NCBI GenBank assembly: GCA_018389105.1
Contig: JACATO010001021.1
Location: 124,001-188,000, forward strand
DNA from: Nautilus pompilius
Taxonomy: Eukaryota > Mollusca > Cephalopoda > Nautilida > Nautilidae
Reading direction: 5' to 3'
Length of the DNA: 64,000 nt
Positions 21,701 to 57,921 of the stretch are shown here, piece after piece. The notes beneath the pieces were generated by a model, which worked only from the letters and a program-made list of their open reading frames with translations, was not told the origin of the DNA and did not search any database. Each line of letters begins with the position of its first letter. Position 1 is the stretch's first letter. The position numbers and the translations under genes are program-made.

Positions 21701-24700
21701 CAAAAAAAAGCATAGTTTTTTTAAAATTAAAAATATGCCTTTTGTTTTTATCTTTCCTATACTGATGATTTTTAAAGGTGTATTAGGATCCAGTGGTCTA
21801 TATAAAAGTATAGACATCTTTAGCAGCATTCTGAATCACACACACACACACACACACACACACCACACACACACACACACACATCTATAGGAAGTTAAAT
21901 TATAATTTGTGCTGAATTAACCCTTGGCTGTCTGTAACTGAACACCAGTGTGACGAGAAGCTGAAACCATTGGTTTCCCAACCATGACTTCACACACCTA
22001 AGACCGTTTTGGTGTGCAGATAACCCATGACTGATTCATGAAACTGAACCAGGAGCGTTTCCGCTGGTGAATAATGATTTATTTATGTGCTGATGCTGGC
22101 CAGCAGGCTCAAAGAGGAAAAAAAAGATAAATATCTCCCTCTTTCCTGCACTGCTACTGACTTTTAAGGTTACCCTTGAAGCTATTACTCGTCTTGGTAG
22201 ATTTTCTTGGTACAGTTAAGAAAAACATATATGCGCTTGAAAAGGAATAAATATCTACCATCAAGAGACATCCCAACTTCTGTCAATGTCTGCTGTATTA
22301 GTACATATGTATTTTGATATAAAAAAATAATAAGAAAATATATTGTTGCTTTATTAATGAAAAAAAAAAAAAGTCAGCAGATATACACAAATGCAAGACT
22401 ATCAGTAGATGAAAAAAGATCAAGACTATTATAGAAAAAAAACAGTAGAATATTATAGGTTTTCAAATGAAACTTGGCCAGATACAATTACAATGATTTT
22501 ATTTTCAGCTGGGAATATATAAATGTAGTAGAAACCCCACTGGGAGCTAGATAACAGGGAACCTTCAAAGGAAGTACTTTCTTCAGATAAGTGTTTTGGC
22601 CTTTTAACTTCCTTACACTATAAGGGGACCAAACCATACCTGGGTCATCAATCCAGAAGCCTCTCTGTTCGGACACAATTGTAATGATTATACTCACAGC
22701 TGGGTTTTACTTTAATATCCCTGGTTTATAGATACATACTTATCCAAAGAACATGTTCATGTTCTGTGGATAGTTATGTGATGTTCCAAAAATTTGTATT
22801 ACTTCCAAATTCATAAATAGGTTTTTCAAGTAAATATGAACAATTCATACATTGGTCAATTAATTGGAAATCTAATTCATTAATTTTAAAAAAAAAAAGC
22901 AAAATTTTACAAACTGGAGAATGATTAACCAGATTATCAAACATAAAGTAAAAATTTATATTTTGTTGCCAAAATTGTCATTTGGTATATACTTTGAATA
23001 AACCGCACAGGTGTGGAGCCTTTATCTGAGAAAGGATATTAATTTATCACAGAGAGTTCAATGCATATTTATTGGATTATCTCCCCATCTGAAACATTTG
23101 GAATAATTAAATGGTTTCCTGATTACCTGTCTGTCTGTAGTCACTAACACTAAGGGTCATAATTAAAAATTAGCTAAAATTTCAGCACAGTTATTATGTA
23201 TTAGAAAATAATATTTTCTAGTAACATAACTGTTAATGAGCGGGATGGATATAAAATTGTTGTCAAGTGCAGTTAACTGTGATGGCATTAATTTCAATTC
23301 CAGGACTGCATAGATGGCCACTTGTCTTAGTGGGGTCTCAGTAACCACTGAACTAAAGCACTTAAAAAGAAAAATAATAACCTACTACTAACAGTGTATC
23401 GTATTTAAGACATAAACAAATTAAATTAAGTTGGCAGAAAACCTAAATTTCTGTGAGGAGAATATAACTGATAAAATGCTTGCAACTGTAGATGATAGTG
23501 TAAAATAGTTGCTGGCCAGATTCCGAAAACTTTAAACTGCAATTGACTTGTGCTTCAGACGATGTTCAACTGAAGCCCAGGGGAAGGAAGCTCGGATACC
23601 ATTACAGTCATGGTGTTTCAGCAAAGTTCAATTTTAAGAACATTTTTAGTACAGGTAAAAACACACCAGCTGTAGGCAACTCCACATCAATTTCTCTTTT
23701 AAAAATTTTGTGGAGGGTGGGGAATTTTGTTTTGTTTCTTCTCTTATAACAGTTGCAAGTTTTCCGAAGATAAATTTCTCTAGTCAAATTCTGTCTTGTT
23801 CCTTACTTAGATGCCAAATTCACCAGCATGGTCACATTATTTATTGATACCTACCGGAAAGTTCTTCTGATGCAGCACCTCGGATGTTTCCACGAGCAAT
23901 TTCTTCTGTTGTCAGCTGATATGTGTCTTGTAGGCGTAGAATGGCCTTAGCGGCTCCATAAAAATCATCAATACCAGGTAAGTTTTTTCTGTTAATTCGA
24001 GATCTCAAGCTGACACCTGGAAGAACAACAACAACAGAGTTGTCCAGAAATCCGAGATATCGGGGAACACAGAGTGAAGGATGCCCTGAGGAAAACGGAA
24101 GGCATTTTTTTTTCCCCTACAGCATTTTCTGAACCATCAGTTATCAGGGAAAATTTGTTTTCTTAAAAAAAAAAAATAAATAGATAAAAGGTAATCCAGG
24201 GTAGAACGTACTCACCATTTGTACTGTTGCTTTCTAGAAGCTGAGAAATCTTGTTCCAGTCCAGTGTCAGCCTTTTAACCAGCAAAAATGCATTTACTGG
24301 GTTTTCCAGCTGCTTGGTAGGATTTCTGAGATACTTATCAATGAGTCTTTCATATTTTCCAGTAATGCTAAAAGTGATTAAAGAAAGAAGGGAGAGGTGG
24401 CTATTAAAATATAGAATTTCCTTTTCTTTAGTAACTTTTAAAAAAAAGGTTTGTGTCAGATGCTGCTTTTGGCTTCAAAGATAAGATTACTAATTACAAA
24501 TTATCATTAAATGTATTTAGAATACTAATTAGATACTCTTGTATCAATGCTTCTCATACAAATACATTGTAGCCCCACCATCTTGCACAACTATAATATG
24601 CAGCCAAACACCATACAGCACTATCAGGCCCTTAGGAGTGAATTTGGAGGTGATAGGGCCTAATCTGCACCCTCCATAACCAGGGAAAGGTACTCACCTC

Positions 24701-28182: not shown

Positions 28183-30738
28183 TCAATCATATATCTTTAT
28201 GAAGATAGAAATTCTCAGTAATATTTTATGGGAGAAGCTATAATATTGATTTTTTTCACGGTCTGGTTAAAAGAGCTTTGGACCCTGTTAACTTTAATGA
28301 CTATTATCAATAACTACCTCTAAAATCATTAATTTGACAGGCACTATGTTCTTCCAGACCATGAAATGTAAAACCAGAACCAATTTGTGTACTGTTCTGT
28401 ATTGATGGCATTTTAAATAGGTGTGCAATTACCAGGCTTTTATTAAAAAAGAAAAAAATGAAGCTGAGATACTGGGAAGGACTCAGCATAATGGAGGTAC
28501 AGATTCTGGAGATCTTAAGCAGACCAAATATTTAAATGTCTGTAGGGTAATTAAAACTGGATCTGTCTAGTTCAACTTTGTACACTTGCAAGAAATGTTT
28601 AACAGAGTAGACATATGAATGTGTGGACAATGCTGTAGCTTTCTGCCATAGATTAACCGACCTGTCTCGGTATTGGAAACCAGCAGAACTGGAGCAGATC
28701 ACAAGCCGTGTGAATGTCTGTCTCACGTGCTACTTGTACCATAATCTTGCTCCTTTGTAAGCATTCATTACTGCGTGATTGGAGATGGAAATTTTCGATC
28801 TGTCTAATTTCTATGACCCCCCCCCCCCCCATTTATGCTAGGGGACCCCAGAATCTGCTGCATCAGTAACTGCTAGCAATAACTTTACCCAAATGAAAAA
28901 AAAAAGATATAAAACAATTATTTAAAAATTTTAAAATATAGATAAATAATTAAATTTAAACAAATAAACTAAATATATAATAATAATAATAATGTCAAAT
29001 TTACAATGTTTAAATAAAAACAAAACAATAACCCTAAATACAACCAGCTGAACAGATATAATAAATGCCTAAACTTCCTAAAGAGTTAAGCAAGTGAGAA
29101 ATTGGAAGAAAAATTAGTAATGCATCCAGGAAACTCAGCTGATTTTACTTAATAGCTTTGTATTGACAGGGTGGATAGTTTAAGATGAACAACTGTCATT
29201 TTTTAAAAAAACTGGCAGATATGCTAAGTTGATGCAAATACAAATGAGACGTTCAGTCACCATAACACAACTTGTGAAAAGATGTTTATCTATTAACCCC
29301 CCTTCTGCCATGGTCCATTATCCTGTGGCAGGGTTACAAGATTTTAATTCTTACTTGAATCAACTTCCTGACCTTTTCTGAATTTTCACATCATTTTATC
29401 TTAAAAGCCCTTTTGCACTTCTACATCTGAAAAGAACTGCTGATAAAATAGCAGTGGCTAAAAACAAGAATCATACCTTTATATATATTCAGTCACCAGT
29501 TAAGGTTATATACCTTCTCCCTTCCTTCTTTTATTCTATAACCTTAAAAACAGATATTTGTGGCTTCTCTTATTAAAAATAAAATTAATCAATAGTAATA
29601 AAACTGCCCTTTTATTGTATAAAAATATTACCATTTTTTTTGGAAAAATGAATTGTTTTCGCCTTAGATAAGCTGAAAAACAGTGCTATTAGCTTAGTGA
29701 ATGGCACCTGCCTCTTGTGATACTGGAATGATTGAACTGTTATTTATTTAAAATGAATTTGAGCAGAATGACATGAGACCTGTCCATATTCAACACAGGT
29801 ATGGGTAATTTTAACACTGATAACCAAAAGCATTTTCCCCTAACTACACTTGTGTAAAACTCCTTTAAATGATCACTGCTTGACTGAAGATTCAATACAT
29901 AGACAATTCATTCCATAACCAAAAATCATTTTTTAAAAAAAAAATTATCTAAACTAACCAATGATTTCCAGAGAATTTTAGTAAAGGTACATTTTTAAAT
30001 TGTTTTATAAACCTGTTGTACACGTATGCGATGGCACTTCTGTTGGATGTACATCATATATATATGTTTAGGGTTAACTGAGACTAGTTGTTAAAGAGGA
30101 TTAAAGCCTTGCCCACATAATTGCTGGTGCTATAACAATTTACCTCCCATAACAACTACCCCTGGTAGTCTCCCTTGATGTTTGCTTGTGCATAGTTCTG
30201 CTGAACGGTACTTGTATTGGTTCTGATATCAATATCTATACTTTTTAGATATGGATGCATAGTTTTGATAATTCGAGCACTGAAATGAAATTGTGAACAT
30301 ACGTAAAATATATGCGTTGTGTGAACATTGGTTCTTGTTAGTGGATTTTAAACTGGTTTGAATTGCTGGCTCTTGGAATGAACTGACTGCAAGACTGTTG
30401 GATTCGGGACTGTGGATTCTATAAAAAAGGAAAACAGAACTGTACCCAAAATAGATTTTAATCAGAATATTCCAACAAATGCTTTTCTTTTTGTCTAATT
30501 TAAATGACTTCTAGTACATACAGCAAGATAAAAAAATTGATTCACAACAGAATGAAGTTTTATTTTCGTATATATTTTTTTCCTTTCCACCATTAGTTTC
30601 AAAATGGATGGATGTGGGTAGAAGATGATGATGATGATGTGCGGATCTTGTAAATAACTTTGTTCGATTTATAAACAAATGAATCTTGCCATTTGCTTAC
30701 TAGGGATGAAAAGAAAAATAAGAAAGAAAACAAACAGC

Positions 30739-31298
30739 TTAGGACAAGAAATAAAACAGATAATAAACGAATAGCAGACACACGGACTTGGTTTTAGAGT
30801 AAGGGTGTGTTAAAGGGGAGCCATTTGTGATGACGCTTTGAATGTATCTCCAGTACCAGTCCGGAATGTTCTTTTGCAGTTTCGGTTCTCTCATTTTAGG
30901 CTGGATCAAGTCAATTTCAGTGTCTGGATAGTAATCATAAGCATTGGCAGCTCTCTTGACTTTCTTGGCAACAGGCTGCATGGCCATCCTGGTTATTAAC
31001 CTCGAAGTCCCTCCATCCACGCCAGCTGGGTCCAGTAAGCTTTTCCTCCCCTTCTCGCCAACCACTCTTCCCGAACAGTTTGAAGGTGAGACGGCTCGGT
31101 CCACTTCAACTTTCACACATCGATGGAACCGGTCTCTGCGCTTCACCTTCAGCAGACATTTCGAAGTTGTCGCTGGTTCTTTTCCAATTAAAACACCAGG
31201 ATAATTTCCAATACTAACATCTGCACAACCATAAAACTGTTTCCAAACTCTGCATCTGGGACAGATTCTTCCACTAGATCTCCTGCCCCGGATTTCAC
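30739..31298 (-). CDS. AA15 LPMO last exon, form B (alternative tail)
   Basis: Acceptor gttttag at 31299 onwards, phase 1. It reads EIRGRRSSGRICPRCRVWKQ, then FYGCADVSIGNYPGVLIGKE. It is aligned without gaps to form A over the first 31 residues, with CxxC in the same place, so it is a duplicated exon. The tail is different and not lysine-repetitive (AYDYYPDTEIDL, IPDWYWRYIQSV), but WYWR resembles WWYRR in form A. It ends with a hydrophobic LLFVYYLFYFLS. The final residues may belong to the 3' UTR if a further splice exists. Confidence 0.82.
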
Positions 31299-34200
31299 CT
31301 AAAACAAATAGAAATATTTGACATCTATATATATTGTATATATGCTAACAGCCTAATTACTAACTAGATATGAAACATCGTACTCCAAATTTAAACACAT
31401 TAACTAAATTTTAATGCAAATAGTCACATATCCAGTTTCCTATGACAGATAGAAAATCTCTATGACTGAAAGGGTTGTTTTCAAACTTTTGCTGAGTAAT
31501 ACTTTTTCTTTCATTGAAATACCTTTGTTTATGCTTGATGAATTATACTACAGGTGAGTCTACATTTGTAGCTATCGAAGTAAATTGCACGTTATTGCAG
31601 AACCACAAAGTTATAATGAAGAAAGGGTACTTTGAGATTAATAATATAGATAAGTTATTAGAAATGACATTTGCATTTATAAAATAAGTTCTGTCTATTC
31701 AATTGCTGCCTGGTGGTCTGTGCTGTTTTAAGGTCATCAATACGAAAAAAATTGTTTATGTCTCTTTATTAATACAAGTTACTCGTCCATTTTCTGTTTG
31801 TATATGAAACCATATTTTTTGTTCAGATCTTTTACCGAAATCTAATGAATGAAACTGCATTTAACATCTTAGTTTTTTAGAGTTATTTCCCTTGGATTAT
31901 GTATTATATTAATCCCCCCTTTTTGGTTTTTAGATTTGTCTTTATTTTTAAAAAAATACTTTAAAAAAAATTTTTTTTTTACATAATTTCTTTCATTTTT
32001 AGGAAACAAAACAATGGCTTTATTTAAATAAAGCAATTAATAGATCTGAAGAATTTTGTTTTTTTTTTTTTTTTTCCTAATAGCTGGGAATCAATTGGAA
32101 TAAAGTATGCACCTGTACAAAACAGGTAAATTGATTATTGAAGATGGAATTTGAAACTGAAAAAAAGAGAGAGAGATAAACTAACAAAAAAATATTATGT
32201 AACTTTTCTTTTCTTTTGTACTAAATATTGATAGCATTTTTCAACAGAAAAAGTTTTTCACAATATTTTCTGACTTTGTGAAAATAGCACTGCTACTAGA
32301 GTAATGCTACCGCTTATCATAGAAATTTCCAGGTGTATCTATCACCACCTGAAAATGCTTCATCATCTTAGGAAAAAAAATTTTTTTTGACCTGTCATCA
32401 TCAACAGATTAGCACTGATAGAAGTGGACCAGTTTGATTTCATGAGTTTAATGTTTTCTTTATTAACATTAACCTTGACTTCACCCAGTACATGACGTGG
32501 AAGTATTCCAGATTGCTGACTGGAGCATGAATACAGCAACAAGGCAAGTTTACTGGAAGATCAATAAATGATAATTCCCAGGTTTGGGGGGGTGGGGAGG
32601 GGAGGGGAGGGGAGGGAGGGTTTGAAAAAAAAAGTCACAAAAATTTATGTCTAGAACTTAGTGTTTCTTCTGTTTGTTCTTTTTGACAAAATCGTAAAGG
32701 TGTTTAGAAATATATGTGTATAAGATTTTTTTTCTTTTTATAACAGAAGACTTCATTGCTAACAAGTTGATGCATAAACCTTGAGAGGGGATCTTCGACT
32801 TTACTTGCCAACCTACCAGCTGTTTTGGAAAGTTGATCGCTCATTGGCTTGTCTTTTCTTTCCTTTTAGAGTTCGCTTTCAGTGCTTGACAGTGCACACC
32901 AATTAAAGGCTAGCTTACCCGTAACAGACTCACTGCAGCTATACAAAACATGTGATATCGACCATAAATTCATTGCTCCGTTTTGTATATATATATTACT
33001 GTAAATGTGATTTCACGTCTTTTTTAAATAAAATTATTAAATCAAAATAAAAAGTGTTTTTTTTTGGCACAAACTTAAATTTTTCACAAATAATTTTAAA
33101 AGATTTTTTCCATTTTTAACACTATGTAATTAGACTGATTTTCTAATAAAGTAAAACGGAACGTGGGTACAGATCTAAATGACTTAGAGAGATTTTAATT
33201 TGTGTTACTAACTCATCTGAATGAATTAATAAATAATTTTTATTTAAAATATACAAAAGCTCTTCGAAGCATAATATTTGAGTTGTTACCAAGAACCAAC
33301 AACAGTGAGAAAAGAACGCTTGTAGCGTTATACTTATTACCTCCCTTAGATCATTTGAGTTCATGGTTGAAAACACATGAATAGATGCGAAAAAAAATGA
33401 ATTTACAAAATTAAAACGTATAGGTTTTTACTTTGTGATTTAATTTTTGTTGTTGTCTTGTGTTTCGTTTTGTTATTTGTTCTGCACGCGAACTAAATGT
33501 ACATTTTCGCTTCGTGTCCACCTGTGGAGACGCAACGGAACTAAAATGGCAGCCCGCCATTATTTGTAGTCGTAGCAAGTTCCTCCGGTAAAAAGCAGAG
33601 CCACGGACAAACAGATGGAACAGAGGTCGCCGGACAAAAGGTGGACCGCGGACTCGCTCAAAGACTTCAATCTCCTCCGGTACCACCAGGGATAACTTCC
33701 GATCGCCCTGCTTTTGATTTTCGGGCACTTCTTCCTGCGACCACGGACGACAACTCCGCCGGACTTCCGACATTTTTTTTTCCTCGGCCGCTTACGTCTC
33801 CGCGTCGGCTTCTTCTTCTTCTTCTTCGGCCGCTTACGTCTCGGTTTCAGTTTCTTCTTCTTCTTCTTCTTCGGCCGCTTACGTCCCGGCGTCAGCTTCT
33901 TTTTCTTCTTCCCCGCTACCTCCTCCTTACCACCGGTGGTAACGGTGGCCCCGCCCTTCTTTGACCCTTTGATTTTCTTCACGATCGGATACTTGGGCTT
34001 GCAGGTGTCGATCCTTACTGGTTTCTTGCCGACCTTGACCTTGGCGTATTTGCCGATGCTCACGTCGGCGCAGCCGTAGAACTGCTCCTGAGGCCCGCAG
34101 CCGACGCAGCTCGTCCCATTGGCTGCTGTACCCCAGCTGTTACCTGAAAGAGTCCGGAGGGGAATCGTTTATACAAAAGGCCTCACCTAGCGGATTTTAA

Positions 34201-37200
34201 ACCAAAAAAAAAAAAAAGGAGAAAAATCAAACATTATATATATTTATTCTTTAACGAATTTTGCTTTCTTTTCTTTCCAAGGTTTATGCTCCAACTCGCC
34301 AGCATCCACAGTCAGCACAACATCACTACCAGCTGCGTACAGCAAACAAAGAAAGATATTCAGACAGATCACAGAAAAATATTAAATATCCAGATTTTAG
34401 TTAAAGCTCCATTAAGGGTCAAGGGGCAGATCACTCGTGAATCCGCACCAAACAAGTGATGTGTAGGCACCGATTCCCAGGCCTCCCGTTTTCAAGCTCC
34501 CCTCCCCTAGTCTTCATATTACGTTTTGGGTTTGACTGACCAGAGAGCATTTTGCTTAAAACCTCTGTTTCCATACCCAGTTTTTAATGACCTTTCCTAA
34601 TATTGGGTGATAAAAATATTTAAAAAGAAACTATTACATCCTTACTTTCTTCACAACACGCGTCTGTCGTGTTTAGAGGTCAGAGTGACCCGAACCCTGT
34701 GTATGCCTGAATGTGTCTTATGTAAAATTATCTCTCACTTTTTAAAAATTATATTTTTCGTATAGTTTTGTTTTCGCAAATTAAAATCTAATTAATTGTT
34801 TATTATTTCTAGTTTCGAGAGATCATCGGTGTCTCGTTTTCCTTGATGTTACCGTAGCAGTATCTCTCTGGGTTTTGAGGTAAAATATGAATAATCGCAG
34901 GTGTTTTCCAGGTGGAGAAGTTTAGCAGAGGTGGAGAGAGAAATAGTGACGTTGGTGCGGAAGTATCAGAAATTGAAGGTATCGCTGATGATAACCCTGA
35001 CCTTCACCCTTTCTATAGTCTGAGGATTTAGATTGAAAATAAACTGTCATTCGATCTTTTCACGCCATCGACAATCGCCAGTGTCATTCTGGATGACCAG
35101 CTTGGAAGGCGGGATTGTTTTCAGCAAGAAATGGAGTGACCTCGCCTAGGGTTAGGGTTACTTTTATTGGCGGGTGTTTACAGGTCAGGGGCGGACTGAG
35201 AGTATTATAGGCCCTCGGGCATAACTGTTCACTGGGCCCCTTAGTGCTGATGTCAGAGGATACAAAGCACCAGATAAGGGGAGGGCGGTTTGGGGGTGTC
35301 AATTTCAAAAAAAATTAAAAAATTAGTTGTCTCAGACTGCATATTGAGTATATTGGAATATTCATTTAATAGAATTTATATGGGAATCTCTTGTAGCTAT
35401 GGGCCCTCCCTCGGGCAGTGCGCGATTGACCGATGGCTCAGTCCGCCCCTGTTACAGGTCCAACGGAGAAGCGAATGATGGCCTTTAGACTGCTGGAATT
35501 AGCCGGGCTCTATTTCCTGCCACCACGTGTCTCGAAGCATTCCACAAGATCGCTCGGCTGATTCGATTTGACAATCGTGAGTCCAGAGCCAGCCGGCGTA
35601 AAGGGGACAGAATGGCCGCCATTCAAGAAGTAAACGTTTTGCTGTTCACTCCAAGGTTAACTGTTACCATGGATGAATGTTTGGTGTCCCTAAAAGGGCA
35701 ATGTCCCCTTAGGAAATGCATGTTTAAAATTCCAGCACGGTGTGGCCTGAAGTTGTGGGTGGCCTGCGACGCCAAATCCATCTACGACCCGAATGTTGAC
35801 AAATTGCCTGGTGAAACCCCGGAACATAATCAGGGGATGCGTCTGGCACCGGATATGTCCTTCCAGGGGGTTTGAGGTCATAGCATAACGACGGACAATT
35901 TTTTTCCCATCGTATTGTCTTGGGGGTCGAACTTCTCAAGAGAAAAACTCACGATACTGGGGACGATTCGAAGAAATAAGCAGGAGATTTCGGATAATTT
36001 TTCATAAATCAAAATGTTCTTGTCATCAGCACGTCGCATAAAAATGCAACAGTGGACGGAGGAAACCAGAGGAAGTTCCGCATCATCCTTGAGTTGACTT
36101 CAACACTTCAAAGGAAGGTTCATAAACTGAAGACCACCGTAGTTCTAGAAGTTGGAGGTGTCGACATACTGAGCCTTTGTTCTGTGCAGGAATATCCATT
36201 CAGACTGGAACTCTACCAAACTTTGCGGACGCAGACCCTTTTTTGGAGACGTTGATAGTTACAATTAGGGGCATTAACCATTATTTTTTCGTCCTAGGCA
36301 TTGAAAATACATTTAAATGTTTTTGGTCATACTGACCTGAAATACAACTCATGTACTTAAATCCTTAACGCGATATGAAGGTTAACAGAAGTCCCAAGAT
36401 GGTAATTTGGTGTGCGTGTTTGGGACGGGGCATAGGGAGCGGTAGCTCACCAAAATCCCTTCGAACAGGTGCGAGACCACGAAGGCTCTGCCGAAAATAG
36501 GGGTTGCAGGAAGATTTAGTCTTCCGCTTGGCGGATTTCCCTTTGGTTTGGATAAAATAAATTCTTCTTGCGACATTGTTTTAGAATGCGCGAGTTTCTA
36601 AGACTGTTGCGAAAGACAGCATTTACCCCTCCACCGTCCCTCACTGATATTTGTCAGTAACATTTAAAAAATGACTGGAAAAAGACTAGAGAAATGAGAA
36701 ACAAGATAGGAAGTATCTAGAAATGACTAAAACAAAAGTTATTCTTGCTAGCATTCATTAATCTCCCACAACGATAAGGTTTTTATTACAAAGGAGAGAG
36801 ATGTAGTAGTAATAGATTCAGAAAGTTTAAATTTCAGACTTATCTCTCCAATAGTGGAACGCATTCTTTGTCTGAAATGGAATTACACAAAAAATATCTG
36901 ACCCTCGTGGGTCAAGTCTTGTTTGTATGTTTATTATATATATATTTATATATTGTCCGCCCACCAAAAAACAGGCATTCATCGTCGTCTACTCTTGAAA
37001 AAAGAGTTACTTCCCTTTGATTAGTTTGCGTTAAAGGTTTTGATATCTCTATGCTGATGTTGGGAACGAATAAATCTATTCTTGCTCTTCTCTCCTACAT
37101 CTTAAAAAAAAATCCAAGAAAACTTCCAAAGTCAGGATTTCTGTGGTAGGCGAATAGCTGATTACCGCATCTTGCTATCGGCTGAGGACATCAGGAGAAG

Positions 37201-37616: not shown

Positions 37617-37663
<47 letters not shown>

Positions 37664-40600
37664 GGGGTGAAAAAGAGTATACCGGTGTTGTACTTCCAGC
37701 GGAGTACGCAGTAGGGACACTTCATACCCTTGGGCAGCTTGACCTTGAAGTGCAGCTTCACGTTCGACTTCTTGGTGAGGATATAGTACGTATCCTTCCC
37801 CGACTTCAGCTTCAGCTTCTCGAAGCACTTCTCCGGCTCCCTCTCGAACGCGTGACACTTGGGGCACACGAAGAACTGAAACCAGCCCATGTGGTTCGCG
37901 GTTATGTGGACGGTGATGCTGATCACCTGCCCGGGTTTGTACTTTTTGACCACGATTCCGTTCGCGTACTTGCCGCCGGGTTCGTTCTCCCTCGGCCCCT
38001 GGTAAGGATCCCCGCACACGCCGCACTTCCCACCCTGTTTTTCGTGCTGATTCTGGAAATAATAAAAAAGTCGGTCGAAAGGTGGCGTTATTTTGGCGAG
38101 GCGGACGGGCGAGGAGTTAGGAGGAAGGTTCTGCTGCCTGGATGTCTCGCCGGGTCGTGGAGTATCTTTTGACCTGCCCACGAAAAAATTGTCGTGTCCC
38201 CCTCTATCTTCGGGGTTTTTTTACATCCCCAGTTAAAGAACCAAGCGGAACACATCAGCTCACTTCCGCTTTGTTTAATTTAGTCTCTACAAAGGCGGAA
38301 AGCCGTCATGTCTTACCCAAATATCGCCTTTAGTATTTTTGGCCGTAGTTAACAAAGGTAATTTGTGAGTGCCTACAAGCATAAAGCCTTCGTTAATTTT
38401 AAAACAGGTGACCTACAGAGATCCGTCCTCCAACGTCTGACACCCAAACTAATATGTTTAATGGTTTAGTTTAATCCAAATCTTAAAGACTGAAATAATT
38501 CTAGCAAATGCTGCATTAACACTGGCGAATTTTAGTGCCATTTCCAGGATTCTTCATTTTACGTTTATGCACTTTAAATGTCGTTTATGGAAATACGAGA
38601 GAACCCAGCAGCACACTACCAGTGACTTGGTGATACGAAGTTGTCTTTTCCTTTTTAAAATTATCTTTGTCCCTTAAAAAAAATTAATCGCATATTGTAC
38701 TTTTATCCCCTTAGTTTTCTCTAAAAGTTTTTTTTTTTTTTTACCAAAACCAATAATGAAATCTAAATACCCAAAATCGACTCCTTTTCTTTCTTTCTTT
38801 TTTTTTTATTCTTTTGTGGTGCGTGTGAAAATTCTTTTATGTGTGTGTATCTCCGAGGAGAAGGGAATGGAGGGTGGTGGCCAAAGCCGTGTAGGGGCCG
38901 AAACCCGGTGTGGAGCAAGCTCCCGTTAAGGCCTAAAAGGCCGGGTTGAGGCGCCGAAGCACATCGTGTATCTGGCAGCCAGAGTTAGGGGCGCGAACGC
39001 CCCACTTTAGAGTGACCGCTTCCCCAGCCAAAAACCAATCTTGGGAAAAAAGGCCTCAGCTCGTCAAGTCCGAAAACCGGTGTCGATGCACCTAAACTTC
39101 CCAGCCAGATAGGCAGGCCAAAGGCAAAAGCGCCCTTCGCCTCCACTCTTTTCGGGCAGAGGACTTTCCGTCTACAAAAGCCACTAAGCAGAGTACTCGC
39201 CTCCCTACCCCCATAAGGTTGACCCCAAGTGACCTTGGTCTCCACCCCAAGTGGTAGGTTGACCACTTGCTGAACTTTCTCTTTCAACAATTCTACAAGA
39301 TACTTTTGGCCTAAAACTGATGCAGAGAATCGCCTGTACAACAAAAATATCACAAAAAATAGGTGACCGATGTATCAAGCTGAACTGGCTGACCGAGCCA
39401 TACTACCGTTTCAATGCTAAAATTACCAATCACGAATCAACGAAATACACATACATCTAACTGAATGTCTCAACACCGATACTCCAAACACCACCACGTG
39501 GTCCATTTTAGCTCTTTTTAAATGAAGGTAGGAAAAAGCAGTAACGTCAAATTTTTGCAGAAAGAAATGACACCATTTTGCGATAAGAAAATTAAGAAAT
39601 CAAACTATTTAGAAACCTGATCAATTAGAGACCAGTTTAAATTTTAAAAAGCAACAATAAAAGCTACTGTAAATCATCTATCATTTATTTTGGTAATGTT
39701 GAAATGAAAAGGAGCCTTAAAAAAATCTAGCGGTTCTGTCTGGTATTCTTCTACCCCCTTTTTTTTTTTTTATCTTTCCACAAATTCTACTGGAGAGAGT
39801 GGTCTCTAGAGGTTTTATGATTAAACTAGCAACCAAAAATGGTATTTCCGGCAGATAGATGTAAAGGATCATATAAGACACCGAGATCAGCGTATTCCAG
39901 ATGTTTAATAATTACTTAAGCAGTCTCAAATTCGTTAGCACAATTTATACTCAGTTGGCTTTTTATGATCTTATTGCACACTGGTCCTTCCCGCTCTGTT
40001 GTTGATCGCTTGCATTGAGAAGTGAAACGACGAATGGATGGGACCTTCTCTTCTCTTTTAAAAAATGCAGTCAGATCTGCAAGATAACCAGCCTATTTTC
40101 GCGAACTTACGTATACCCAGCTGAAATAAAATCTGGCGAGCCTTACGTCAGTAACAAAGGACTTACGGGACAGAAATAGTTTCAGCCAGGTGTCGGTAGT
40201 ATTACAGCTGTCGCAATTCTCAAGTTACAAAGGATAAAAGAATGAGGTGAGGAAAAGGAGGCGGCGAATCGGGGCTTATTTGTCGCCCAGTCTCTCATAC
40301 GTCCTTGCATAACTAATAGCTGACTTACACTGATGGTAAGAGTTTCTATCTGCAGCGCTGAGACAAAGACGGACGATGCTGATTTTCTTTTACGTTATTC
40401 TTCGTGACCAAAATACCGACACTCGGAAAATAAATCACATCTTTCCAAGCGACATCGACAACAAAACTCACTAACTTTCGATTTCCTTCTTAGCTTTCAC
40501 ATTTTCGGACACGCGCACGCAGTCCTGATTGCTTACATATTTATTTCCAATGTCGATAAAATTACACTGTTCGGTATATTTCCTGGGAGGTGCACTGACG

Positions 40601-52970: not shown

Positions 52971-53066
52971 GTGTCACGTTTCCGCAGCTAGGAGAGTGAC
53001 GATAGGGTGTATCATCACGTGTAGCAAATTCGTGTGCACATGTCAGGATTTTTCAGACCGTCAGAC

Positions 53067-54881
53067 ATGGCCTCAGAGAAGAAAAAGCGAAAAGTAGAAG
53101 ATGAATCACGCAAATTCAGCGACAGGTGGACCTCAGAGTATTTCTTCACCAGTGTTAAAGAGACTGCAGTATGCTTAATTTGCAATGAATCTGTGGCTGT
53201 CCTTAAAGAATATAATCTCAGGAGACATAATGCTACAAAGCATGCATCAAAATACGATACCTTTCAGGCCCAGATGCGGAAAGATAAGGTGCGGGAATTT
53301 GAAAAACGTCTTGCGGGCCAACAAAATCTCTTCAAGAAGGGCACTGCTGAGGCAGACATTTCGGTGCGTGCCGGTTATTTAGTCTCCAAAATCCTGGCAA
53401 AACGTATGAAGTCCTTTGGTGATGGCGAGATGGTGAATGAATGCCTTGAACCTGTGGCTGATATAGCATTTCCTGAGAAAGCTATTATTTCAAAAATTAG
53501 CCTGTCAAGGTTTACTGTGGGTAGGAGGGTTGATGACGTCAAAGAACATTGAAGACATCCTGAAATGCAGAGCATCAATTTTCACGTGGTTTTCCATAGC
53601 ATTGGACGAGAGCACTGATGTTTCTCATGTAACTCAACTGGTTGTCTTCATTCGAGGCATTGATACTGAATTTAACATAACCGAGGAGTTAGCGGGTATG
53701 GTGGGAATGATGGGCACAACAACCGGTGCGGATTTGAAAGAAGAGTTGATGAAAGTACTGAAGCGGTTGGGCTACCTTTAGGTAGGCTGAGTGGCATTGC
53801 AACTGATGGGGCCCCATCAATGGTTGGAAAGAACAACGGCTTGACAACTATCATCTCTCTAGAAGCTAGGGCTCTGACTGGTCGTGAGTTAATTTTATGT
53901 CACTGTTTGATGCATCAAGAGCACTTATGTGCAAAATCTTTGGGGATGGAAAATGTTGTTGCAGTTATTGTGAAGCTTGTGAATTTCATGACATCAAATG
54001 GATTGAATCATCGCCAATTCAGAGAGTTGCTGAGTGACATGGCATCTGATGATGGAGATGTGGTTTATTATGCTGAAGTGCGATGGCTAAGCCGCGGTCA
54101 GATGCTCAAGCGAGTTTATGATTTGAAGGAAGAAATTGAGCTCTTCTTAAATATGAAGGGAAAACCAGTGAAGGCATTTAGCGATCATGAGGGGATGTGC
54201 GATTTTGCATTTTTGATCGACCTTACTCAGCATTTCAGTGAACGGAATCTGAGGCTCCAAGGAAAGGATCAGCTCATCCACGCCATGTTTGACAAGAGCA
54301 AGGCGTTTGAATCCAAGTTGTCGCTGTGGGAATCACAACTTCGCTCCAATAACCTTGTTCATTTTGAAACGTTGAAGAAGGAGAATCCAGATGATTCTGA
54401 AAAATATGCAGAAGAGATTCGGCGACGCAAAGATAAATTTCACTTCCGTTTTCAAGACTTCAGAAGATGCGAGGATACCTTCAACATCATCCCCATTTCT
54501 TTCGATGTCAGTGCTGAAAGTGCACTTCCAGAGCTTCAAATGGAGCTTCTTGATCTTCAGTGTAGCACTGAACTGAGAGTCAAATTCTGCGATGTGCCGC
54601 TCCTTGACTTTTACAAACTCTACCTACCAGGGAAGAGTTTTCCCGAATTGTCAAACCATGCTTTGAAGGTGGTAAGCTTGTTCGGCAGCACTTACATCTG
54701 TGAGCACATTTTTTCAAAAATGCGGCAGCTGGAGAACAAGCATCGAAATCAGCTGGTAGGCGAATGGATGGAAAGCTTCTTGCGCATCGCAGCGTCTCAG
54801 ATCGAGCCGGACATAGAAAGACTTGTGAAAGAAAAAGAGTCAAGTGTCGCATTAAGCTACTTAAAAAAGTGGTATGAATAA
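53067..54881 (+). pseudogene. hAT transposase with BED zinc finger (GTF2IRD2/FAM200-like), two frameshifts
   Basis: Start chosen at MASEKKKRKVED. A BED finger follows: C36xxC39 and H54xxxxH59 in CLICNESVAVLKEYNLRRHN-ATKH. The RNase-H-like core includes SIALDESTDVSHVTQLVVF, ATDGAPSMVGKNNGL and CHCLMHQEHLCAKSL, then EVRWLSRGQMLKR. The end FGSTYICEHIFSKMRQLENK is the dimerisation helix. The frame shifts near 53525-53540 and shifts back near 53770-53780, and no other stops interrupt about 600 codons. The gene is thus nearly intact: either recently inactivated or broken by two sequence errors. The ends of the element lie on both sides. Confidence 0.9.
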
Positions 54882-55995: not shown

Positions 55996-56269
55996 GAGAA
56001 ATATGATTACAAACCGCCAATGAAGCACGGAATTTGGGGATAAACTTAGGAGAGAAATGAAACAACATGAGTACGAACAGCTAACTTAGCCACTGGGGAG
56101 GGAGCGGGGAAACAGGCCAGTTTTCTAACTCGTCATGCCGTTGATTCTGCCGTAGGGGACAGGAGCAGGGGGTGGGGGGTAAAAGAAATATCAAAATATT
56201 TTCCTATGTTTTCTTTATTCGTAGATTTTTTTCCAGCACTTTAACATCATTTAATAGTTTCACCTCTCT

Positions 56270-57310
56270 CTCTCTCTGTGTGCTGACGTCATATCTCTCC
56301 AACTGTCTGTCTGTTCTGACGTCATATCTTTCTATAATGACGTCATATCTCTCCAACTGTCTCTCTGTTCTGATGTCATATCTTTCTGTAGTGACGCCAT
56401 ATCTCTCCAACTGTCTCTCTGTTTTGACGTCATATCTCTCCAACTGTCTCTCTGTTCTGATGTCATATCTTTCTGTAGTGACGCCATATCTCTCCAACTG
56501 TCTCTCTGTTTTGACGTCATATCTTTCTATAATGACGTCATATCTCTCCAACCGTCTCTCTGTTCTGATGTTATATCTTTCTGTAGTGACGTCATATCTC
56601 TCCAACTGTCTCTCTGTTCTGATGTCATATCTTTCTGTAGTGACGCCATATCTCTCCAACTGTCTCTCTGTTTTGACGTCATATCTTTCTATAATGACGT
56701 CATATCTCTCCAACTGTCTCTCTGTTTTGACGTCATATCTTTCTATAATGACGTCATATCTCTCCAACTGTCTCTCTGTTTTGACGTCATATCTTTCTAT
56801 AATGACGTCATATCTCTCCAACCGTCTCTCTGTTCTGATGTTATATCTTTCTGTAGTGACGTCATATCTCTCCAACTGTCTCTCTGTTCTGATGTCATAT
56901 CTTTCTGTAGTGACGCCATATCTCTCCAACTGTCTCTCTGTTTTGACGTCATATCTTTCTATAATGACGTCATATCTCTCCAACTGTCTCTCTGTTCTGA
57001 TGTCATATCTTTCTGTAGTGACGCCATATCTCTCCAACTGTCTCTCTGTTTTGACGTCATATCTTTCTATAATGACGTCATATCTCTCCAACCGTCTCTC
57101 TGTTCTGATGTTATATCTTTCTGTAGTGACGTCATATCTCTCCAACTGTCTCTCTGTTCTGATGTCATATCTTTCTGTAGTGACGCCATATCTCTCCAAC
57201 TGTCTCTCTGTTTTGACGTCATATCTTTCTATAATGACGTCATATCTCTCCAACCGTCTCTCTGTTCTGATGTTATATCTTTCTGTAGTGACGTCATATC
57301 TCTCTCAAAA
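56270..57310 (+). repeat. 54-bp-period minisatellite built on TGACGTCA
   Basis: A 33-bp unit (TGACGTCATATCTCTCCAAC, then TGTCTCTCTGTTC) alternates with a 21-bp unit (TGACGTCATATCTTTCTATA plus A). This gives a 54-bp period with about 19 repeats and a visible higher-order pattern near 162 bp. Variants TGATGTCA, TGACGCCA and TGATGTTA occur in fixed places. Because 54 is a multiple of three, long stop-free frames exist on both strands; I take these as by-products, not genes. The first unit is preceded by a CT tract and GCTGACGTCA, matching the spacer family of 26.8 kb in reverse complement. Confidence 0.92.
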
Positions 57311-57921
57311 CTGTTGGTCTCGTTTTATATTATTATTTTTAGCCCCATTTTCATAGGGTTTCGGTTGCTCCTTTCTTAGGTTCGAACCTGAGAAATCAGG
57401 TACAATTACGCCTTGATGTCCCCGATCTTAACTAATCGTCGATCTTTACGCTCCACCAATTTTTTTTCTATTTTTACCCCACCCCCCTTATCCACAAACA
57501 AGATGGCTTAGTCACCTTGACGTGTACTGTTGTCGGTTTTTGTTGTTTTTTTTCCAAAAAAAGAGAAGAAATTCCAGGTCAACCCCCGATTAGTGCCTCA
57601 AATTCTCCAACCACAGACGCGGATACTAATCTCAAGGCTTCCGGGAACTCTATACATTTACTTATACTGATTTTTCTTTCCTTTCTTCTTCTTTCTCTCA
57701 TATAGCGAGTTGCCCGGGTCAGCCCTGACTAGATCTTAATCCCTGTTGTGTGTGCGTTTTTGTTTTTGCACGCAATAGATTTCTCCAAAGTTACGCGTAC
57801 TAGCTCAATCGATCCCTTTAAAAAAACAAAACAAAAGGAACAACAATAACTGAACCGTATTCTTTTTGTTTGTTTTGTTAGTCTCCCCCCCCCAGCCATT
57901 TCGTTCGGCACGAGACCGGTG

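Follow-up and report, generated by a model that had tools for sequence, protein, structure and literature searches.

The 64-kb window analysed here, C976:124001-188000 of the Nautilus pompilius genome, carries on its minus strand a gene for a lytic polysaccharide monooxygenase (LPMO) of family AA15. Its first two exons are followed by two homologous terminal exons, 3A and 3B, which are entered in the same phase and have separate stop codons. We believe, with a probability of about 70%, that this is a single AA15 LPMO gene with two alternative last exons. Positions below are those of the window unless a contig is named, and all exons of the gene lie on the minus strand.

Results

The coding part of exon 1 (41101-40931) encodes a signal-like start (MFPRIDVKQLLFFCCLIHLVLS) followed by the mature N-terminus HGRL with His1 of the histidine brace. 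Cleavage of the signal would expose this histidine, as the hydrophobic start suggests, and the exon product aligns to 5MSZ, the AA15 structure from Thermobia domestica, beginning at 5MSZ residue 1. The donor of exon 1 (TCA/GTAAGT) is in phase 0. Exon 2 (38052-37683) encodes the AA15 domain core, including the second histidine of the brace (ANH, aligned to APH of 5MSZ), and has a phase-1 donor (CCG/GTATAC). Exon 3A (34143-33560, stop 33562-33560) encodes a canonical AA15 domain end (GNSWG...GCGPQEQFYGCADVSIG), then a tail rich in Lys and Arg with a hydrophobic stretch close to its C-terminus. Exon 3B (31298-30739, stop 30741-30739) completes the same domain with GEIRGRRSSGRICPRCRVWKQFYGCADVSIG and passes into a different tail with a terminal 14-residue hydrophobic stretch.

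Exon 2 ends in phase 1 at 37683, and 3A and 3B each enter in phase 1, so that the same frame is restored; spliced form A has 374 residues and spliced form B has 366. An earlier note on this DNA had proposed these coordinates, the phase and the junctions 37683 to 34143 and 37683 to 31298, all of which are correct. It had also spoken of mutually exclusive exons; since each exon ends in a stop, 3A and 3B are alternative last exons rather than internal mutually exclusive ones. A candidate poly(A) signal, AATAAA, lies about 315 bases past the 3A stop (33239-33244, minus strand) and another about 175 bases past the 3B stop (30559-30564, minus strand); both should be taken with caution, considering that AATAAA/ATTAAA hexamers are frequent locally (11 between 33700 and 30000).

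Splice sites were scored with an approximate weight matrix not fitted to Nautilus pompilius. By this measure the 3A acceptor ranks 8th of the 3945 AGs on the strand, which agrees with the consensus acceptor that had been ascribed to both exons; 3B fits this description less well. The donor of exon 2, at rank 544 of 3431 GTs, is a weak one. Its score of -0.99 is the lowest among 13 scored AA15 exon-2 donors, the others ranging from 2.18 to 8.66; the 13 include this gene and 12 of its 15 paralogs, with C2238 and C355:1606k, whose alignments stopped short, and C123 left out. A weak donor is to be expected at a regulated splice choice, although this is the case of one gene only. About 20 bases downstream of this donor there is a perfect triplet array, (ATT)15, at 37619-37663.

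An extra exon between 3A and 3B was considered and rejected, as no candidate open segment with a phase-1 donor exceeded the score thresholds there. The segment 32156-32113 (minus strand), which has the top-scoring acceptor of this interval and a GT 44 bases on, was set aside because the frame of 3B would not be kept.

Both spliced forms match the Pfam profile LPMO_10 over its full length (1-183 of 183), form A with 72.9 bits and form B with 66.9 bits at a cut-off of 23; the last-exon peptides alone give no LPMO_10 match at the Pfam cut-off. The sole PDB match at E ≤0.1 is 5MSZ, over residues 1-193, with 175 bits for form A and 146 bits for form B. The claim that both last exons complete one LPMO catalytic domain is supported by these matches.

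Over their first 31 residues 3A and 3B align without gaps, with 16 identities and with CxxC and QFYGCADVSIG in register, as had been observed earlier; none of 5000 shuffles reached the score. The homology goes further than this: the ungapped match runs on to Cys228 (KY.KVKVGKKPVRIDTC against NY.GVLIGKEPATTSKC), the score of this part beyond the domain being reached by 7 of 5000 shuffles. In total it covers 48 residues, with Cys193, Cys196, Cys205 and Cys228 in register. The tails had been called wholly different, which is not true up to Cys228 and is adequate past residue 231, where similarity is not significant (score reached by 1017 of 5000 shuffles). The last 50 residues are a borderline case (278 of 5000 shuffles), with a suggestive P.WY.R motif 43 and 41 residues from the two ends.

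In the block QFYGCADVSIG all 11 residues agree and 10 of the 11 codons differ, all of them synonymously. Over the 48 codons the proportion of synonymous differences (pS) is 0.96 and that of nonsynonymous differences (pN) is 0.32. On account of this synonymous codon turnover and of the ratio of the two values, 3B looks old and constrained. No stop-free sequence was obtained in 2000 base shuffles of 3B (10.9 stops on average), and three were obtained in 2000 shuffles of 3A.

If 3B belonged to another LPMO gene, exons 1 and 2 of that gene should be sought upstream. In the window, tblastn at E ≤10 found no second exon 1 or 2, the further matches (E ≥0.6) being at chance level. The own genome was searched as 2558 contigs (727.6 Mb), and all counts from it are lower bounds. 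There are at least 15 LPMO_10 matches in it. The exon-2 query matches at least 16 places, two of them on C976: the gene under study and a neighbouring gene, called N below, at C976:31225-30848, 130 kb downstream. The exon-1 query also matches at least 16 places at E ≤10, the last of them, on C2053, at E 0.35 and with a stop. Three of its matches are on C976. One is the own exon at 165101; the other two, near 34 and 33 kb, immediately precede exon 2 of N, and none was found by this search between the gene under study and N. The 3B query matches itself, the last exon of N, 3A and one place at E 9.9.

These results bear on the possibility that 3B is part of a separate LPMO gene whose first exons were missed by the assembly or by the searches. 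Other AA15 genes do cluster closely in the genome (for example, on contig C355), and lower-bound counts leave room for such a miss. Yet the searches of the contig gave no further exon 1 or exon 2 upstream of 3B, the window is free of undetermined bases (the letter N), and 3B has no second copy among the matches of its query. We consider this explanation very improbable. A separate gene with its own upstream exons had been named in advance as the finding that would overturn the one-gene interpretation; it was looked for in the window and in the contig and was not found.

Further comparison was made with the paralogs, the stretches downstream of exon 2 being examined for 14 of them and for a fifteenth on C123. 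For 13 of the 14, the last exon is preceded by an AG whose place and phase match the 3A and 3B acceptors exactly, i.e., the intron is the same; the start of the last exon was not established for the remaining one, C355:1606k. Twelve of these 13 acceptors read AG/GNAAC or AG/GNAAT, and that of C331 reads AG/CACAG. It follows that in this family the closing strand shares a single exon with the whole tail, the tails themselves being very diverse. The paralog C355:79k is without the CxxC loop.

The key positions of AA15 in the numbering of the Thermobia domestica enzyme (Td) are His1, His91, Ala89, the axial Tyr184, and Tyr24 and Tyr166 rimming the flat surface, according to the pertinent parts of PMC5823890 and PMC9156745. 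The Nautilus gene shares with TdAA15A (5MSZ; Sabbadin et al. 2018, PMC5823890) the domain from His1, which is aligned to 5MSZ residue 1 (HGRL), to the closing strand, and keeps the brace histidines, the Ala of A-x-H and Tyr24 of the mature chain. TdAA15A has Tyr at the axial and second rim positions; in the alignment the axial Td184 corresponds to Phe202 in both Nautilus forms, and the rim position Td166 to Trp184 in form A and Arg184 in form B.

It had been proposed that splicing swaps the axial side of the copper site and keeps the His brace. The brace is kept indeed, as its residues lie in the shared exons 1 and 2. The axial side is not swapped: the axial residue is Phe in both forms, and the changes are Trp184 to Arg and Glu200 to Lys. 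The net charge of residues 181-200 is -1 in form A and +6 in form B. Taking Td as the reference, form A agrees with it and form B differs at 8 of 31 sites, with no site of the reverse kind (binomial P 0.008); therefore, the rim and the loop have changed on the B side and the closing strand has not.

Form A has the brace histidine pair, the axial Phe and the aromatic rim residues. It looks like an ordinary, canonical AA15 LPMO, since it has Trp at Td166 and Phe at Td184 as does the insect LPMO15-1 group in the part of PMC9156745 that describes it. Form B retains the brace and Phe202 and lacks the rim aromatic, a residue that we do not claim to be strictly defining for the family.

The second change can be related to residues of the copper second sphere. 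Such residues are Arg212, Glu217 and Phe219 in ScLPMO10C (PMC12703677, the portion concerned) and the set His155-Gln164-Tyr166 in NcAA9C (PMC10472438, likewise). The acid or amide of either enzyme precedes the axial aromatic by two positions, and the same spacing gives Glu182 in Td, Glu200 in form A and Lys200 in form B. Residue 200 would thus be equivalent in space to the second-sphere Gln/Glu of AA9 and AA10. The passage on this residue in PMC10472438 refers to mutational studies, older than the discovery of the peroxygenase activity, which found the Gln/Glu crucial for LPMO activity. Form B does not have it; two of the 15 paralogs are also without Glu at this position, which is therefore not strictly defining.

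The paralogs were read by eye at both positions. Two residues before the axial one, 13 of 15 have Glu, one has Met and one Thr; at the rim, 12 of 14 have Trp and one has Phe, the remaining one being not alignable. The Lys and Arg of form B appear unusual, though the family is not uniform. We presume that form B may be retuned or inactive.

The interpretation offered earlier was that both forms are ordinary active secreted LPMOs differing in their tails and in the axial environment. The histidine brace, the axial Phe and the shared cysteines, kept in both, agree with it, and so do the two Pfam scores above the cut-off. On the other hand, the axial residue is identical in A and B, form B has Arg where 13 of the 14 paralog last exons have an aromatic residue and Lys where most paralogs have Glu, and a Gln/Glu is reported as crucial for activity in the cited part of PMC10472438. 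We find this view doubtful. The words "two secreted LPMOs" are uncertain on two counts: form B is perhaps without normal LPMO activity, and there is a hydrophobic stretch near both C-termini.

The net charge of the tail is +58 over 163 residues in form A, owing in part to about three tandem units of 42-45 bases within 3A (33780-33911, minus strand) that encode a KRPKKKKKK-type basic sequence; it is +14 over 155 residues in form B. Near the C-terminus both tails have a 14-residue stretch with a mean hydropathy above 2. Form B terminates in VCLLFVYYLFYFLS at the stop, form A has LCSICLSVALLFTG and seven more residues ending in DYK, and the neighbour N ends in LRLLILALGSVWLITGRGVGL. Glycosylphosphatidylinositol (GPI) anchors are mentioned for some AA15 proteins in the section of PMC8615602 concerned, and a transmembrane span is predicted for insect group II in that of PMC9156745. 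Because both tails carry the hydrophobic stretch, membrane anchoring of the A and B products is plausible; the charged end of form A seems to suit a GPI signal less well.

A tail of another kind is found in the paralog C901:71k (L011), whose last exon has HPSKPTKK-type repeats passing into another repeat reading (..DDMASIEAYEEG..). It looks like a coding minisatellite in which the array seemingly changes frame partway.

Discussion

We believe that the interpretation as one gene with two last exons is well supported at the sequence level: 3B is in frame, appears old and constrained, and the searches of the window and the contig gave no AA15 exon 1 or 2 upstream of it other than this gene's own. 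The anatomy, the frame, the homology, the constraint and the failure to find other upstream exons are read directly from the DNA, and from them we infer that both junctions are probably used. In this mechanism, the signal peptide, the histidine brace and the greater part of the fold would come from exons 1 and 2. The weak exon-2 donor would be spliced either to 3A or past 3A to 3B, and the chosen last exon would add the closing strand, which holds the axial Phe, together with the entire C-terminal tail. Form A would be the canonical enzyme. Form B would retain both brace histidines (His1 and the second His), the axial Phe and the four cysteines that it has in common with 3A, and would exchange the substrate-rim aromatic for Arg and the putative second-sphere Glu for Lys. 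It is predicted to bind copper, with altered substrate contact and with oxygenase activity altered and possibly lost. The products of both forms may be membrane-anchored via the hydrophobic stretches.

Several observations weigh against this interpretation. By the weight matrix, the acceptor of 3B is no more than moderate, with rank 306 among the 3945 AGs of the strand. The third-position G+C content of 3B is 0.46, as opposed to 0.85 in exon 2 and 0.73 in 3A, though exon 1 (0.51) is close to 3B. At E ≤0.5 none of the 14 paralogs showed a second last exon in the 10 kb downstream that were searched (20 kb in four cases), and neither did the C123 gene in 8 kb; the stretch downstream of C355:1446k includes 2500 bases given as the letter N. 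3B itself is recovered by the 3A query under identical settings (E 3e-10), so a comparable pair would have been seen, and the 3A/3B arrangement is therefore not general in the family. The phylogenetic tree joins B with N and not with A (89/79), with a very long B branch, although this grouping is below the tool's bar for starred branches. With N as the reference over 47 sites, A agrees with N and B differs at 15 sites, and B agrees with N and A differs at none. As to the chemistry, the equivalence of Glu200 to the second-sphere residue of AA9 and AA10 is based on spacing from the axial residue. The corresponding Glu of SmAA10A sits elsewhere in the chain, i.e., the spacing rule is not universal.

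The same tree (14 rows, 11 inner branches, one of them starred; C355:79k, C355:1606k and C123 left out) groups A, B and N at 87/94 on a short alignment, again below the starred-branch bar. After the domain all three share Y..V.[VI]G..P.....C, which is not seen by eye in the other fetched paralogs. At one of the 47 sites A and B agree and N differs. Either B evolved fast after an exon duplication, or it split off before the duplication that separated the A and N genes.

The latter course leads to another explanation, in which 3B was left stranded when an older, third tandem AA15 gene, whose last exon it was, lost its exons 1 and 2; it would now be unspliced and only slowly decaying. The 15 states shared by A and N against B, with none shared by B and N against A, would be natural under it, and so would the very long B branch, the G+C content at third positions, which is unlike that of exon 2 and 3A, and the moderate acceptor. 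What argues against it is the state of the exon. Synonymous sites are saturated, yet the 186-codon frame, the acceptor, the four shared cysteines and QFYGCADVSIG are intact; a dead exon of that age should hold stops or frameshifts. We regard a stranded exon as improbable. 3B may nevertheless have come from an older gene and have since been taken into use by this one.

The neighbour N has two homologous first exons, at C976:34406-34242 and C976:32866-32690, upstream of its exon 2 (C976:31225-30848), the only exon 2 found there. Each of them has a signal-like start, the mature N-terminus HGRL and a GTAAGT donor. They agree at 29 of 35 mature residues, with pS 0.83 and pN 0.10. Because N has two first exons, terminal-exon duplication probably occurred twice in the subclade of A, B and N, at opposite ends of the gene.

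Returning to the two last exons, it is tempting to propose a splice switch between a catalytic enzyme, form A, and a membrane-tethered copper protein, form B, with the same brace, a charge-reversed second sphere and rim, and a retuned or non-catalytic function. Terminal-exon duplication round a shared core exon would then be a recurrent event in this subclade, as the two first exons of the neighbour suggest. We put this forward as a tentative possibility and think it rather unlikely in its entirety.

With the alternative last exons, and the mutually exclusive exons arisen by duplication, of animal genes in general, the Nautilus pair has in common tandem homologous exons of one phase and a choice that alters a part of a domain. 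The swap in Nautilus differs from these in covering the end of an LPMO catalytic domain together with the entire tail.

Two fungal genes of family AA9 provide another parallel. Gloeophyllum trabeum lpmoA yields two AA9 enzymes from one gene by alternative splicing, GtLPMO9A-2 having a C-terminal region; the part of PMC8615602 on this gene gives no hint of duplicated homologous last exons or of a residue swap near the copper. Aspergillus niger eglD/EGLD-AS has two splice forms, both reported to be active with some differences, and the corresponding part of PMC11031446 does not describe duplicated terminal exons.

In AA15 itself, full-text literature searches recognised no case of alternative last exons, which is weak evidence, as most subscription papers lie outside their scope. 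The string "splic" has no occurrence in the main text of PMC5823890, where, in the part on the sequences, the Thermobia domestica proteins consist of the catalytic domain only. In the covered parts of PMC9156745 alternative splicing is mentioned once, in a reference title on chitin synthase 1, and there is no description of an Arg as in form B. The insect LPMO15-1 group has in those parts a Cys-rich C-terminal stretch, unlike the tails of forms A and B.

Searches of viral and prokaryotic contigs (protein, alignment and pattern) gave no AA15 relative from another species; these misses say little because of the composition of the collections. Two pattern matches among viral contigs were rejected. 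L001 reads by eye as an HNH-endonuclease-like frame, and in L002 only 12-15 residues match the queries (E 0.16-0.33).

The use of animal AA15 LPMOs beyond digestion is an open question on which this locus bears. If our interpretation is correct, the gene offers a natural paired comparison on a single scaffold, in which the brace and the axial Phe stay the same and the second sphere and the rim change; LPMO variants would then also be hidden by giving each locus a single gene model. Should 3A alone be used, the locus would be an ordinary AA15 gene accompanied by a stranded exon.

Other features of the window

Rfam (at the gathering threshold) and tRNA scans of the window gave nothing. A DDE_Tnp_1_7 fragment lies on the opposite strand at 35489-35875 (plus), in the intron separating exon 2 from 3A; we take it to be of a piggyBac-type transposase. 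Downstream of the LPMO gene, two exon sets match P4Ha_N, the N-terminal region of the prolyl 4-hydroxylase alpha subunit (256-1090 and 23841-24474, minus strand), which suggests two tandem genes on the LPMO strand. At 53025-54881 (plus strand), overlapping frames match the Spin-doc zinc finger and also, with a weak score below the cut-off, the hAT dimerisation region; this is a probable hAT-type transposon gene. Finally, there is a minisatellite at 56204-57356 whose unit measures about 54 bases and is repeated 16.5 times in 56414-57304; in this array several frames are open on both strands.

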